Below, in pieces: positions 343-8,192 of a stretch of DNA of 8,192 bases (position 1 is its first letter; each line of letters opens with the position of its first letter). The position numbers were made by a program, and so were the translations under genes. The DNA comes from a bacterium (GTDB lineage: Bacteria; JACRDZ01; JAJRWM01). Where the stretch lies: contig JAJRWM010000085.1 of the NCBI GenBank assembly GCA_024276815.1, forward strand, positions 1 to 8,192. The letters are read 5' to 3'. The notes below the pieces were generated by a model that did not search any database, was not told where the DNA came from, and saw nothing but the letters and a program-made list of their open reading frames with translations.

Positions 343-1596
343 TTAGCTGTTCATGGAATCGAGAAACTCTTGGTTGGTTTTGGAAGGGCGCATCTTTTCC
401 AGCAATAATTCCATGGTTTCAACCGGTCCCATGCTGCTTAAAACATTGCGCAACACTCTGACCCGAACCAGTTCCGTCTCATTCATCAGAAGCTCCTCTT
501 TCCTGGTACCCGAAGAATTAATCTCAAAGGCCGGGTAGATATGCTTGTCGCTTAACCGCCGATCCAGATGAACCTCCATGTTGCCGGTACCTTTGAATTC
601 CTCAAAAATAACGTCATCCATGCGGCTGCCGGTGTCAATGAGAGCCGTAGCAATAATAGTCAGACTACCGCCGTTCTCAATGTTACGGGCGGCTCCGAAA
701 AACCGTTTTGGTTTCTGCAACGCGTTGGAATCGATACCGCCGGAAAGAACCTTGCCCGAAGGAGGAACAATTGTATTGTAAGCACGGGCGAGACGGGTGA
801 TGCTGTCGAGTAAAATCACGACATTATGCTTGTGCTCAACCAAACGCTTGGCTTTGGCGATTACCATCTCCGCCACCTGAACGTGCCGGGTCGCCGGCTC
901 GTCAAAGGTGGAGCTTATCACCTCGCCGTTGACCGAACGAATCATGTCGGTAACTTCCTCAGGACGCTCATCAATCAACAAAACAATCAGCTTGACATCA
1001 GGATGATTGGCGGTAATGCTCTGGGCCATCTTCTGTAGCAGGACAGTCTTGCCGGTACGAGGCGGGGCGACAATAAGTCCGCGCTGCCCCTGACCAATCG
1101 GCGTCATCAAATCCATAACGCGGGTACAAAAATCATCCTGATCCTTTTCCAGCTTGAAACGCTGGTCCGGGAAAAGAGGCGTCAGGTTGTCAAACAATAT
1201 TTTGGTTTTTGATTTTTCCGGATCCTCAAAATTTACATTCTCGACCTTCAGCAGGGCAAAATAACGCTCGCCTTCTTTGGGCGGGCGGATTTGACCTTCC
1301 ACCGTATCCCCGGTCTGCAAGTCAAAACGGCGGATTTGGGATGGGGAGACATAGATATCATCCGGGCCGGGCAAGTAATTATAATTAGGAGAACGTAAGA
1401 AACCATAGCCATCCGGTAAAACTTCCAGTACGCCTTCACCAAAAATATGCTCACTTTTGCCGGCGGACGCGGAAGCTTCCAGTATCTTGAAAATCAGCTC
1501 CGATTTACGCAGATTGCTGACTCCTTCAATTTTTAACGCCCGGGCGATTTCCGTGAGTTCCTGAACAGTCTTTTTCTTCAGGGCTTCCATATCCAT
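343..1596 (-). CDS. rho: transcription termination factor Rho
   Basis: Hexameric RNA-dependent ATPase/helicase that ends transcription of untranslated RNA. The order is canonical: a Rho_N helical domain (about residues 4-45), a cold-shock-like RNA-binding domain (about 50-130, with the G-Y-G-F-L-R patch), and a RecA-type ATPase core. The core has Walker A APPRTGKT (catalytic Lys183), Walker B VVILLD (Asp264), the Q-loop VLSGGID and an R-loop region [15 protein letters not shown]. The length of 417 aa is normal, with no N-terminal insertion. I chose the ATG at 1596; an ATG two codons later is equally possible. The frame stays open to 1653, but that extension would overlap coaE and is basic and unlike Rho. 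The start lies 23 nt after the coaE stop, so the two are probably cotranscribed. The sequence is most like delta-proteobacterial Rho proteins. Confidence 0.98.
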
Positions 1597-1619
1597 TTCG
1601 TCTTTTTTGATGCGGTTTC

Positions 1620-2222
1620 TTATTGTTGTTCCGTTTCTTGCCATTCTTGCCACTTTTTTTCTACCTCTTCTTTCAGTATGTTAATTGATTTTGTATTTTT
1701 AATGACTGTGTCAGCCATCGCTGTTTTCCTCGTCAAAGGCATCTGAGCGTCAACCCGCTTTTTAATTTCCGCTCTTTCTACCTGATCTCTTTTTACCAAC
1801 CGCTCCAGCCGTGTCGCTAGCGGAGCTCCAACCACAACCAACTCATCGACAATCCCGTCAAGCCCCACTTCGATCAGCAAAGGAGCCTCAATTATCACGA
1901 CCCCGCTGTCCGTTTCCCATGCCGCGACCCTCTTTTTAATTTCACTGACAATTAAAGGATGCAAACAAGCGTTAAGTTTTTTCAGCTCAGCCGGCTGATC
2001 GAACACCAGCCGTCCCAGTTTCCGCCGATCCAGTTCCTGGTTCGGGAAAAAATAGCCGCCGCCGAAAACCTCCCTTATTAACCGCCAGCCTTCCGCGTCA
2101 GGTTTCGTCAAGTCCCGGGCGACCTCATCAGCCGAAATAACTTCCGCCCCCAGTTGTTTGAAAAAGCCGGCCACGGTCGTTAGACCGCACCCCATGCCGC
2201 CAGTCAAACCGATCAGCTTCAT
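1620..2222 (-). CDS. coaE: dephospho-CoA kinase with an altered Walker A motif
   Basis: Catalyses the last step of coenzyme A synthesis, ATP-dependent phosphorylation of the 3'-OH of dephospho-CoA, in the cytoplasm. The 200-residue length is typical. Family signatures are present: the N-terminal IGLTGG, the SADEVAR substrate-side aspartate, APLLIE near residue 95, the arginine-rich lid ([17 protein letters not shown]), and ADTVIKN near the C-terminus. The P-loop reads GGMGCGLTT where the family has GG(I/M)xSGKST. Codon 14 (2181-2183) is CTA, leucine, instead of the phosphate-binding lysine. Changing AAA to CTA needs two substitutions, so one miscalled base cannot explain it. The start is the ATG at 2222, 5 nt after the galT stop; a TTG three codons earlier overlaps that stop. 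Neither has a clear Shine-Dalgarno, which suggests coupling to galT. Identity is secure; activity is uncertain. Confidence 0.93.
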
Positions 2223-2227
2223 CGATT

Positions 2228-3241
2228 TCAAACCGATGGCAATTTCGCCTGACGTAAAAACAGCGCCGCGTCCTCAGGCGCGGTAGGATTAATATAGAAA
2301 CCCGTACCCCACTCGAAACCGGCCATCCTGGTCAGAGTGGGAATAATTTCAATATGCCAGTGATAACTGTCCTGGCCGCCGCTCTGCGAGGGCGAAGTGT
2401 GCAAAACAAAATTGTAGGAACAATCGTTTAACACGACCTTCAGCCGAAGTAAAACCAGCCGCATAAGACTGGCCAGTTCCAGAATCTGTTCCTTTCGCAG
2501 ATTGGTGAAATCATTATCATGAATTTTCGGCACCAGCCACATTTCAAAGGGAAAACGGGAGGCAAAGGGAGTGATGGCGATAAAAAAACGGTTCTCCTCC
2601 ACAATTCGCTCGCCGGTCGCGACTTCCTGTCGGACGATATCACAATAAATGCAACGGTCTTTCAATTCCCGATGCAGCTTGACGCCGGCCATTTCCTCGA
2701 TCACCCGCTTGGGTATGATCGGCAACGCGATAACCTGGGAATGAGCGTGAGCCATTGACGCTCCGGCCTGCCTGCCGTGGTTTTTAAAGATCAGAATATA
2801 TTTAATACGTTCGTCTTTTTTCAGGTCAAGGATGCGGTCCCGGTAAGCCCAGAGAACTTTTTCAATTTGATCGTTGCTGTAATCAGCCATATCCTTGTCG
2901 TGGTGGGGCGTCTCAATAATAACTTCATGCGCCCCCCGACCGCTCATCAGGTCGAACATACCGCGGCCGACACGGTTAAGATCGCCTTGCGGCTGCAGAG
3001 CGGCAAACTTGTTGGGAATAACCCTCAGCCACCAGCCGGGATTATTCGCCTGGCTGCCTTCCTTCCGGAAAGCCAAAATCTCTGTCGGTGTTTTATCTTC
3101 ATTACCCTGACAAAAGGGACAGGTCTCCGGCGTGCTGTGATTACCTTCAGCCGAACCGAAATCGAACTCCCGCGGAGTCTGCGACCTGGTCGAGACGACA
3201 ACCCAACGATTAACAACCGGATCTTTTCTTAATTGCGCCAT
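2228..3241 (-). CDS. galT: GalT-family hexose-1-phosphate nucleotidylyltransferase
   Basis: HIT-superfamily enzyme transferring a nucleotidyl group between UDP-hexose (or a related donor) and a hexose-1-phosphate via a covalent histidine intermediate; Leloir pathway if it is a true GalT. Visible features in 337 residues: CPFC (41-44) and CIYC (197-200), candidate metal ligands; the GAHEV segment (103-107); the active-site block NHGRQAGASMAHAHSQ (154-169), whose second histidine (His167) would be the nucleophile; and the C-terminal YHWHIE (293-298) and GFEWGTGFYINP. The motif is H-A-H-S-Q rather than the H-P-H-G-Q of classical GalT. H-x-H-S-Q is also found in the related ADP-glucose:phosphate adenylyltransferases, so the nucleotide used is uncertain. 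The start ATG is preceded by AGGGA with 6-nt spacing, overlapping the polA stop region. No other galactose gene is present. Confidence 0.9.
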   Translation of the reverse strand: MAQLRKDPVVNRWVVVSTRSQTPREFDFGSAEGNHSTPETCPFCQGNEDKTPTEILAFRKEGSQANNPGWWLRVIPNKFAALQPQGDLNRVGRGMFDLMSGRGAHEVIIETPHHDKDMADYSNDQIEKVLWAYRDRILDLKKDERIKYILIFKNHGRQAGASMAHAHSQVIALPIIPKRVIEEMAGVKLHRELKDRCIYCDIVRQEVATGERIVEENRFFIAITPFASRFPFEMWLVPKIHDNDFTNLRKEQILELASLMRLVLLRLKVVLNDCSYNFVLHTSPSQSGGQDSYHWHIEIIPTLTRMAGFEWGTGFYINPTAPEDAALFLRQAKLPSV

Positions 3242-3250
3242 AAATAGTCC

Positions 3251-5872
3251 CTAATTTAACTCCGCCCAGTTCCGGCCCAGCCCGACTGAGACTTTCAGCG
3301 GAACTTTCAAACTCGCCGCCCGCTCCATTTCCCATCTGACAACGTCTTTCATCAACTCAACTTCCGCTTCGGGAACTTCATACATCAACTCATCATGGAT
3401 TTGCAAAAGAAGCCTGCTCGCTAAATTTTTATTCCTGAGAACCTGGTCTATTTTCAGGATTGCGATTTGTATGATATCCGCGCTGCTACCCTGGATAATG
3501 GTATTAACCGCGGCTCGTTCACTAAACTCCCGACGGTTTTTATTGCCGCTCATTATTTCCGGCAAAACCCGGCGGCGACCCGACAGGGTCCTGACATAAC
3601 CGGTAATTTTAGCTTCGGTGACAACACCTTTGATATACTCAGCGACGTTTTGGTAGCGTTCAAAGTAACGATTTATGATCGATTTCGCTTCCCTGTAGGG
3701 AATTTTCAACTGGCGGGCCAGGGCAAAAGCGCCCAGGCCATAGACCACCCCGAAATTAACCGCTTTGGCCCGCTGACGCATCTCTTTGGTTACCAACTGG
3801 GGGAAACACTGGAAAAGCTCGGCCGCGGTATGGGTATGAATGTCTTTGTCTTCCTCAAAGGCCTCGATTAAATTTTCATCCTCGCTAAAATGGGCCAGCA
3901 CTCTTAATTCCATCTGTGAATAATCCGCCGATAATAAATAACAGCCCGGCTCACTGACAAAAGCGGCGCGAATCTTCTTCCCCGGCTCGCTGCGCGCCGG
4001 GCTGTTCTGCAAATTAGGCTCGCTGCTACTGAGACGACCGGTCAGGGTGCCCACCTGGTGAAAACAGGTATGCACCCGCCCGTCATCTTTGTTTATCATC
4101 CAGGGCAGCGTTTCAATATAGGCGGACCGCAGTTTGGCCAGTTGCCGGTATTCGATAATAGCCGCCGGCAAAGGATGCTCAGCCGCCAGGACTTCCAGGG
4201 TATCGATATCAGTGGAGGGCCCTGTTTTGGTCTTGCGAATGACCGGCAGTTCCAATTTATTGAAGAGAATGTCTCCTAACTGCTGTGAAGAATTGGGGTT
4301 GAACTCTTCGCCAGCCAGGTCATAAATCTTCTTCGTTAGCTCTTTCAAGCCGACATTGACCTGTTCCGAAAGTTCGCTCAACTTTTCCGGCAGGACCTTG
4401 ATCCCCGTTCGCTCCATCCCGGCCAAAATCCTGGTCAGCGGCTGTTCCATTTCCAGATAAAGATCATTCAATCCGGCTGTTTTCAAGCGCTCATCCAGTA
4501 AAGAAAAGGAGCGGTAAATTATCTCTAAACGCCGGCTGAGTGCTGTGAGCGCCTGCTCAAACAGGCTATCTCCTAAAAAAGCCGGATTAATTTCGTCAAT
4601 TTTGAAAAGCTCTTGGCTGCTGGAAATATCTGCCCAAATATCATTTAGCTGATAACGTTTTTTTAATGGGTTTAGTAAGTAGGAAGCAATCTTTATATCG
4701 AATATCTTCTCGGTAAGCTCAATCCCGTTAAGGGCCGCCAATATATATAAGGTCTTCAGCCCGCTACCGATAATCATATTAGCACTCGTTTTTAGCTCTG
4801 TCAAGCCTTTTATCAAGCTTTTTTTCGGGATATCCTCCCCCCCGAAGACCACGGTCACCCCATCAAAGAGCCCGACACCTCTGAGTTTTGCCGTCAGAGG
4901 ACTTTCGCCATCCATGATCCAGTCGACAGCGATCCGCTTCCGCCGTGAAATCGCCTTGATCTCATTAAGCCAATCCCGCTCGTTATCAATGACCCTGACC
5001 GGCAGCCGGCTGTCCTCCTGAAGCGGAACCTGGTAATCCTTAAGCAGAGAGTAAAGCTCAAAACGCTTCAGCAAAGGAAGCAGCTTTTCTTTATCCGGCT
5101 CCCTGATTTCCAGGTCATCCAGACCGGCCTGGAGGGGAACATTTTTATCAATGGCGACCAGTTGCCTGCTGAGGTAGGCCTTCTCTTTGTCGGCGACCAG
5201 TTTCCGTTGCAACGATTTGGAGTTGACCGCCTCGATATTATTATAGAGGTTATCCAGGCTCTCAAATTTTAAAAGCAGGGTCCGGGCCGTTTTGTCGCCG
5301 ACTCCCCTGACGCCGGGAATGTTGTCCGAACTGTCGCCCATAAGCGCCAGAAAATCCGCCATCTGGTCAGCCCTGACGCCCATTTTTTTCTTGACGGCTT
5401 TTCGGTCAAAAACAATTCTTGGGGCGCGGTCATTGAGAACCTTAACCTTGTCGTCCACTAACTGCAAGAGATCTTTATCGGCAGAAGCGATCAAAATTTC
5501 CTCAACGCGGTCCCGGGTTAGCTCGACTAATGACGCGATTAAGTCGTCAGCTTCAACGCGGTCGCGCTCAAACACCTGGAAACCCAGGGCGGTGGTAATC
5601 TCCTTGATAAAAGGGATTTGGAATACCAGTTCCTCCGGCATGGGCGGACGGGTACTTTTATATTCGCTGTAAATACTGGCGCGTACTGATGATTTGCCAC
5701 TGTCAAAAGTCATCGCCAGGTGGCTGGGGTTTTCTTCCCGGACCAGCTTTAACAGCATCTTGATAAAACCATGAATGGCGTTGGTCGGTTCGCCCGCGGA
5801 GTTACTCAGATGGCGGATGGCGAAGAAAGCCCGGTAAAGATAATTATGTCCGTCGACAATGATTAGTTTCAT
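3251..5872 (-). CDS. polA: DNA polymerase I
   Basis: Repair and Okazaki-fragment polymerase, 873 aa. The 5' nuclease domain (1 to about 290) has the expected acidic motifs: VDGHN, EADDLIASL (107-115), SADKDLL (130-136), GDSSDNIPGVRGVG (179-192). The middle domain (about 305-470) keeps the 3'-5' exonuclease fold position but not its catalytic set: D-x-E is D-W-I (317-319), and the second motif reads GSGLKTL, with no N or D. Proofreading is therefore probably lost, as in Taq and Bacillus enzymes. The polymerase domain is intact: TGRLSSSEPNLQN (611-623), motif A DYSQMELR (Asp650), motif B Arg699/Lys703/Phe707/Tyr711, motif C QIHDE (824-828). The start is the ATG giving MKLIIVDGHN; a TTG 13 codons upstream is less likely. 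No good Shine-Dalgarno precedes the ATG. A small open frame ends there in an ATGA overlap. Confidence 0.98.
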   Translation of the reverse strand: MKLIIVDGHNYLYRAFFAIRHLSNSAGEPTNAIHGFIKMLLKLVREENPSHLAMTFDSGKSSVRASIYSEYKSTRPPMPEELVFQIPFIKEITTALGFQVFERDRVEADDLIASLVELTRDRVEEILIASADKDLLQLVDDKVKVLNDRAPRIVFDRKAVKKKMGVRADQMADFLALMGDSSDNIPGVRGVGDKTARTLLLKFESLDNLYNNIEAVNSKSLQRKLVADKEKAYLSRQLVAIDKNVPLQAGLDDLEIREPDKEKLLPLLKRFELYSLLKDYQVPLQEDSRLPVRVIDNERDWLNEIKAISRRKRIAVDWIMDGESPLTAKLRGVGLFDGVTVVFGGEDIPKKSLIKGLTELKTSANMIIGSGLKTLYILAALNGIELTEKIFDIKIASYLLNPLKKRYQLNDIWADISSSQELFKIDEINPAFLGDSLFEQALTALSRRLEIIYRSFSLLDERLKTAGLNDLYLEMEQPLTRILAGMERTGIKVLPEKLSELSEQVNVGLKELTKKIYDLAGEEFNPNSSQQLGDILFNKLELPVIRKTKTGPSTDIDTLEVLAAEHPLPAAIIEYRQLAKLRSAYIETLPWMINKDDGRVHTCFHQVGTLTGRLSSSEPNLQNSPARSEPGKKIRAAFVSEPGCYLLSADYSQMELRVLAHFSEDENLIEAFEEDKDIHTHTAAELFQCFPQLVTKEMRQRAKAVNFGVVYGLGAFALARQLKIPYREAKSIINRYFERYQNVAEYIKGVVTEAKITGYVRTLSGRRRVLPEIMSGNKNRREFSERAAVNTIIQGSSADIIQIAILKIDQVLRNKNLASRLLLQIHDELMYEVPEAEVELMKDVVRWEMERAASLKVPLKVSVGLGRNWAELN

Positions 5873-6163
5873 AGAATGGATACCATAATAGAGGTGTGCC
5901 ACCTCGGGCAATTGCCTTCGGCTCTTTTAATTATCGCTCCCGAACAGTCGGTCGCTATCGTGTTACCTAAAGGCAAATTAAAAGCGAAGCCAAGGCAAAA
6001 CAAGAACCTTGGAAACCCCTTTTTTACGCCGAAGGCGAATTGGGTGAAGCAGCCTGCTTCTTTCCGGCACCTTCCCCATATCCTATCGTGCGCGTAGTTG
6101 AAGCACTAAAAACTTTAAACTTAGGATAACGGACGACCGCCTTGCATAAGCTTGAAATACGCT
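5873..6163. other. palindrome-rich intergenic segment between rqcP and polA
   Basis: No recognised gene. The stretch is unusually rich in inverted repeats: GAGGTG/CACCTC (5891-5905, 3-nt loop), the self-complementary GGCAATTGCC (5907-5916), a longer imperfect pair (5915-5932 with 5976-5995, sharing CTTTTAATT/AATTAAAAG), CCAAGG/CCTTGG (5990-6012), CGCC/GGCG (6027-6037), and GAAGCAG/CTGCTTC with one central base (6046-6060). A minus-strand frame is open from 6105 to the TGA at 5869-5871, which overlaps the polA ATG as ATGA. Its only useful start is a TTG at 6003, giving 44 residues with a hydrophobic N-terminus. The strand opposite also has long open frames. It may be an interspersed repeat, a structured leader of the polA mRNA, or decayed coding DNA. 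I see no convincing promoter or terminator. Confidence 0.4.
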
Positions 6164-7660: not shown

Positions 7661-8192
7661 TTATTGCCGGCTTTCTCCCCGGCTGGTCACGATGATCGCC
7701 GGCTCGTTCCTCAGGACACATTTATTTTCACAAATCCCGCAACCGATACACAGCTCCTCGTCAACATAAGGACGCTTGAGCACCTTTCCCGGCTGCCCTC
7801 AGGCAGATCAAGATGTTCAAACTTAATGGCTTTGCGCGGAGTCGGGCAATGCTCTTCGCAGACCAGACAGTTCTGGTTTTTGGCCCAGGGCAGACAGCGG
7901 TTGCGGTCGAAATGGGCGAGACCGATTTTTATCTTCTGTTTCTGCGGCAAGGTGATCCTCCGGATGGCCCGGGTGGGGCAAACCTGGGCACAAAGGTAAC
8001 AGTTATACTCACAGTAACCGATTCTTGGTATCAGGCGGGGACTGAACATCACGCTAAGCGTCGCCTCGAAAAGGCTCGGCTGCAGCGCGTTGTTCAAACA
8101 AACCCTCATACATTCGCCGCAACGCACGCAGTGTGACAGGAACTCTTTTTCGGGAAGCGCGCCCGGAGGGCGGATCAGTCTTTCATCGGGAG
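7661..8192 (-). CDS. polyferredoxin (4Fe-4S protein), 5' partial with an apparent frameshift
   Basis: Electron-transfer protein of the NapG/MauM-like multi-cluster type; the gene starts beyond the right edge. From the edge it reads DERLIRPPGALPEKEFLSH, then three cluster motifs: CVRCGECMRVC (8130-8098), CEYNCYLCAQVC followed by PT (8013-7978), and CLPWAKNQNCLVCEEHC followed by PTP (7896-7846). The PRIGYCEYNC block is characteristic. After EHLDLPEG the frame degenerates and stops at 7711. Shifting by one base at the CCC run 7796-7798 restores a perfect continuation: KVLKRPYVDEELCIGCGICE, completing a fourth CxxCxxCxxxC (7750-7718), then a normal end at TAA 7661-7663. One extra G in the coding-strand GGG would repair it. 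It is therefore a sequencing indel, a recent null allele, or a truncated protein. Neither substrate nor partners are visible here. Confidence 0.85.

Follow-up and report, generated by a model that had tools for sequence, protein, structure and literature searches.

The dephospho-CoA kinase (CoaE) encoded in the window, the whole stretch of 8,192 nucleotides analysed here, carries a leucine at the position of the Walker A lysine. Our preferred reading, held with a probability of roughly 0.77, is that this protein is a functional enzyme and the sole dephospho-CoA kinase of its genome, working without the lysine, whose part would be taken by arginines of the lid. The evidence lies in the sequence itself, the recurrence of the lysine loss, the single copy of the gene, the purifying selection on one lysine-less clade, the retained lid and catalytic residues, and a co-change at columns of the Mg2+ site. 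This lysine is regarded as nearly invariant, and mutating it is the usual way to inactivate a P-loop enzyme.

The coaE gene and its genome

The coaE gene is located on the minus strand (1620..2222) as an unbroken open reading frame, which gives 200 amino acids from the ATG at 2222 or 203 from a possible TTG start at 2231. It is the single CoaE match in its genome, and the protein matches PF01121 with 170 bits (cut-off 27; E = 4.8e-50) over profile positions 2-178 of 180. The closest sequence relatives in the PDB are all dephospho-CoA kinases. Furthermore, an AlphaFold (AF2) model (mean pLDDT 96.0, pTM 0.90) was compared with PDB structures, and its best 30 fold matches are dephospho-CoA kinases throughout, with TM values up to 0.91.

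The P-loop (2178..2201, minus strand) reads G8-G-M-G-C-G-L-T15 at the place of the consensus GGIxxGK[ST], and it departs from the canonical Walker A pattern GxxxxGK[ST] by having Leu14 for the lysine. The codon (2181..2183) is TAG on the plus strand and CTA on the minus strand, that is, leucine at residue 14 when counted from the ATG at 2222, and it aligns exactly under the lysine of the solved CoaEs among the PDB alignments listed. The codon and this alignment bear out the sequence-only reading, which had reported a leucine replacing the lysine in GGMGCGLTT. As it had also pointed out, CTA differs from AAA by two bases, so that one read error is no explanation. Its view that the gene is not decayed agrees with the intact frame, the PF01121 score and the strong conservation of the rest of the protein. 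Regarding the motifs said to be preserved, the remaining conservation is indeed strong, but SADE does not belong among them, since the family consensus is D-A-D and Ser30 (2133..2135, minus strand; the position of E. coli Asp31) sits where the first Asp is expected. This replacement is itself part of the change that accompanies the lysine loss.

The gene lies in a minus-strand run of housekeeping genes (PpiC/SurA-like, S4 protein, polA, galT-like, coaE and rho). The upstream neighbour encodes a galactose-1-phosphate uridylyltransferase-like protein (2228..3241, minus strand; PF01087, PF02744), and it ends with a stop codon immediately adjacent to where coaE starts. The downstream neighbour encodes the transcription terminator Rho (343..1653, minus strand; PF07497, PF00006, PF07498).

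The genome comprises 2.39 Mb in 246 contigs and is 91% complete, which means that about 9% may be missing. A second coaE had been suggested as one way out for an impaired enzyme, and a profile search of this 91%-complete genome did not find it. The archaeal-type GTP-dependent dephospho-CoA kinase (PF04019) gave no match in the genome either, and the controls matched in four archaea. CoaBC and CoaD are both encoded. Together with the one CoaE, this indicates a genome that makes CoA, in which no candidate other than coaE was found for the final step.

Lysine loss across bacteria

Column 14 was inspected in the closest genomes, a check proposed with the first observation, and the answer was partial. 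The three other genomes of the same phylum that were compared all carry lysine, and the nearest of their CoaEs is only 40% identical to the window protein, so close relatives cannot decide on an error at this codon. A peptide-based scan of the genome contig collection with the window protein revealed no relative.

A DNA pattern for non-lysine CoaEs was then applied to 84,980 species genomes. It left position 30 free, permitted Ser or Thr at position 15 and asked for a second codon base other than A at the lysine position, by which Gln, Glu and Asn are missed. The scan gave 17 matches, 15 of them genuine CoaEs; the remaining two (L127 and L141) are beta-propeller-like repeat proteins. Considering these 15 matches, and that the lysine form of the pattern recovers 115 of 207 lysine-bearing CoaEs, lysine-less CoaEs would be rare per species, well under 0.1%. 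In a set spanning many phyla, 7 of 120 CoaEs lack the lysine, the window's included.

An alignment of 233 distinct CoaEs, gathered from the genome scan and targeted sampling with one fragment excluded, has lysine in 207 sequences and another residue in 26 (nine Val, five Gln, four Ala, four Thr, and one each of Ser, Met, Leu and Arg). Trees from which the trait columns were left out show 13 changes of the lysine state, with the direction uncertain at two places, which corresponds to about 11-13 separate changes. The initial picture of a lone oddity was therefore wrong, since the lysine has been lost in many lineages. One wholly lysine-less clade, with Val or Ser, is formed by eight genomes of Armatimonadetes- and ANGP1-named MAGs and their relatives (L128, L130, L133, L135, L140, L210, L279 and L280). 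Another, with Ala, Val or Thr, is formed by six genomes of Calditrichaeota-, LCP-89- and Zixiibacteriota-named MAGs and their relatives (L126, L132, L136, L137, L138 and L175). Among the Nitrospirales relatives, two of about 30 CoaEs are lysine-less (L129 and L261, with Thr and Gln, respectively); they and their lysine-bearing neighbours, which are about 70% identical, would make well-matched natural partners for comparative biochemistry.

Two other observations were made in these sequences. In a gammaproteobacterial MAG (L142/L153), Arg takes the place of the Walker A lysine within an open frame of 805-846 amino acids, which is perhaps a fusion. Genome G002, from the same phylum as the window, presents two different CoaE genes (L032 and L033), each adjoining a thiC-like gene and one of them ending at the contig end; this reflects either a duplication together with the neighbour or a mixed bin.

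Judged by their sequences, the natural lysine-less CoaEs, including that of the window, look like working enzymes, and we infer that the window protein is active. In 16 lysine-less genomes, a search for further CoaEs above the Pfam cut-off found none; one of these genomes (L129, OY282373.1) is a single contig of 2.9 Mb. The weak extra matches in these genomes are confined to roughly the first 35-50 positions of the profile, as expected of other P-loop proteins. The catalytic base Asp32 (2127..2129, minus strand; E. coli Asp33, M. tuberculosis Asp32) is invariant in all 233 CoaEs, the 26 lysine-less ones included, a retention that, like that of the P-loop Gly and Thr residues, is partly built into the scan pattern. 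Moreover, pairwise dN/dS in the eight-genome Val/Ser clade, which is not the lineage of the window, is 0.11-0.39 at 60-82% identity; these are rough NG86 values with high dS, yet far from neutral. The sequences clearly point to purifying selection on the lysine-less CoaE of this clade.

Lid arginines and the Mg2+ site

It had been suggested that another lysine or arginine substitutes for the missing one, as in deviant P-loops, and this is partly right. No column with a newly gained Lys or Arg marks the lysine-less group in the 233-CoaE alignment. The compensating lysine in or near the P-loop that defines deviant Walker motifs (such as KGGxGK) is absent as well, and a 12-residue stretch of the protein inspected for it contains no basic residue. 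On the other hand, a lid arginine that was already there is kept throughout. Arg141 (1800..1802, minus strand), which corresponds by alignment to Arg140 of M. tuberculosis and H. influenzae CoaE and is the proposed main phosphate-binding cation, is present in 26 of 26 lysine-less CoaEs versus 202 of 207 others. Two more lid arginines, Arg145 (1788..1790, minus strand) and Arg156 (1755..1757, minus strand), are kept in 25 and 26 of the 26 lysine-less proteins versus 155 and 181 of the 207 others, and the conserved basic residue Lys166 (1725..1727, minus strand) in 25 of 26 versus 178 of 207. Gln160 is found in 26 of 26 versus 204 of 207. None of these five residues is covered by the scan pattern, which therefore did not select for them.

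Mutants of M. tuberculosis CoaE bear on this point. The K14A mutant keeps 81% of the activity (kcat of 2.34 versus 2.886 per min), with a Km(ATP) of 86.7 versus 56.8 uM; R140A shows no reaction, and R140K does not bind an ATP analogue (PMC3019153). The authors of that study, who called the Walker A lysine absolutely conserved in CoaE, proposed that Arg140 covers for the absent lysine (PMC3019153). In this one CoaE, the lysine is nearly dispensable and the lid arginine indispensable. At about 3 per min, the M. tuberculosis enzyme turns over slowly, and K14A may for that reason be a poor yardstick. The lysine seems dispensable in CoaE, and we infer that the lid arginines carry its role in the window protein. 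Its repeated loss would be explained most simply if the lysine contributes little in this family and the work falls to the lid arginines.

The lysine loss was also examined for co-change with other positions, over 99 testable columns and two statistics on 11 lysine-loss branches. The best column is position 30, where Asp is absent at the end of nine of the 11 branches (4.35 expected) and on five branches disappears together with the lysine (0.74 expected, p = 0.00025), a result that is marginal on one tree after correction over 99 columns and two statistics, and weaker on the other. An alternative rooting gave the same result, and the second tree gave four same-branch losses versus 0.89 expected (p = 0.0067). 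The second-best column is that of the Mg2+-binding P-loop Ser/Thr, Thr15 in the window protein (2178..2180, minus strand), where the change is from Ser to Thr and Ser is absent at the end of seven of the 11 branches (2.6 expected, p = 0.004). An independent-pairs test, with only five supported pairs, was not significant. The data did not support the idea that Asp31 must be gone from a lineage before the lysine is lost (four of 11 events versus 39% expected, p = 0.69).

In CoaE, Mg2+ is held by the P-loop Ser/Thr and, via water, by two carboxylates (PMC3019153). Taken with these ligands, the co-change at positions 30 and 15 is a new signal and suggests that the lysine loss is tied to a retuning of the Mg2+ site, which perhaps removes a charge pair.

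In the mechanism that we propose, ATP-Mg would be bound by the backbone amides of the P-loop, the Thr15 hydroxyl and Mg2+. When the lid closes, its conserved arginines, chiefly Arg141, would neutralise the charge of the beta and gamma phosphates, probably with the assistance of Arg145, Arg156 and Lys166, and Asp32 would activate the 3'-OH of dephospho-CoA. The loss of the lysine would be accompanied by the retuning of the Mg2+ site, in which D-A-D loses its first Asp and the P-loop Ser becomes Thr. A wider proposal, which we hold tentatively and at somewhat less than even odds, is that dephospho-CoA kinases with lysine-free P-loops are a natural class that has arisen repeatedly, in which the Mg2+ site is rearranged in a coupled way and, together with the lid arginines, replaces the lysine, so that phosphoryl transfer is lysine-independent.

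Alternative explanations and relation to known enzymes

The assembly is fragmented (246 contigs) and incomplete, and the nearest relatives carry lysine, as would be seen with an assembly or sequencing error at the codon or with a recent inactivating mutation. This is very improbable, since two base changes would be required in a frame whose surroundings and motifs are intact, unrelated lineages and entire clades also have no lysine in this column, with codons that vary, and Ser30 and Thr15 match the pattern of the other lysine-less CoaEs. It is very unlikely that the protein is an impaired enzyme or a regulatory pseudo-kinase and that another, unrecognised enzyme makes CoA. Such an enzyme could be missed in a 91%-complete genome, but the 16 lysine-less genomes, with the single-contig one among them, hold no second CoaE, the window's genome has no PF04019 enzyme, the catalytic Asp and the lid are kept in all, and dN/dS is far below 1 in one clade.

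An enzyme that works by a changed mechanism or donor, with a monovalent cation (K+ or NH4+) in the place of the lysine or with a donor other than ATP, is unlikely. It would fit with the nature of the replacements, small or uncharged residues instead of Arg, by which the charge is not simply kept, and with a D-A-D motif that loses its first Asp along with the lysine, as if a charge pair were removed. However, no sequence feature in the differing columns points to a bound cation or to another donor, and K14A of M. tuberculosis still uses ATP (PMC3019153).

The preferred reading, a working CoaE with lid arginines in the role of the lysine, places the window protein close to the known enzymes (EC 2.7.1.24; PF01121; E. 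coli 1n3b/1vhl, H. influenzae 1jjv and Aquifex 2if2). It shares their fold, length, lid, catalytic Asp, lid Arg and single-copy housekeeping setting, and differs by Leu for the Walker A lysine and Ser for the first Asp of D-A-D. The K14A protein of M. tuberculosis also has a neutral residue at this position, keeps most of its activity and depends on Arg140, but it is an engineered Ala mutant with the rest of the Mg2+ site unchanged, whereas the window CoaE is natural (PMC3019153 for the mutant). The other lysine-less clades share with the window protein a neutral residue, Glu or Ser in place of the first Asp, the lid arginines and, where searched, a sole CoaE; they differ in having Val, Ala, Thr or Ser instead of Leu and in their separate origins on the tree.

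The biochemical half of this finding was already known from one engineered enzyme in 2011 (PMC3019153), and the natural recurrence was found here. A literature search, mostly without subscription journals, found no description of a natural lysine-less CoaE. These natural sole-copy CoaEs from many lineages offer ready subjects for testing how P-loop kinases can work without the lysine, and they warn against declaring proteins dead on a motif alone.

Elsewhere in the window, the DNA polymerase I (3251..5911, minus strand) has probably lost its proofreading activity, as judged from a 3'-5' exonuclease region that matches PF22619 weakly, below the cut-off, and from VDWIMDGESP at the place of the D-x-E motif of active enzymes. 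Near the right end, 7711..8127 (minus strand) encodes part of a multi-cluster 4Fe-4S protein.
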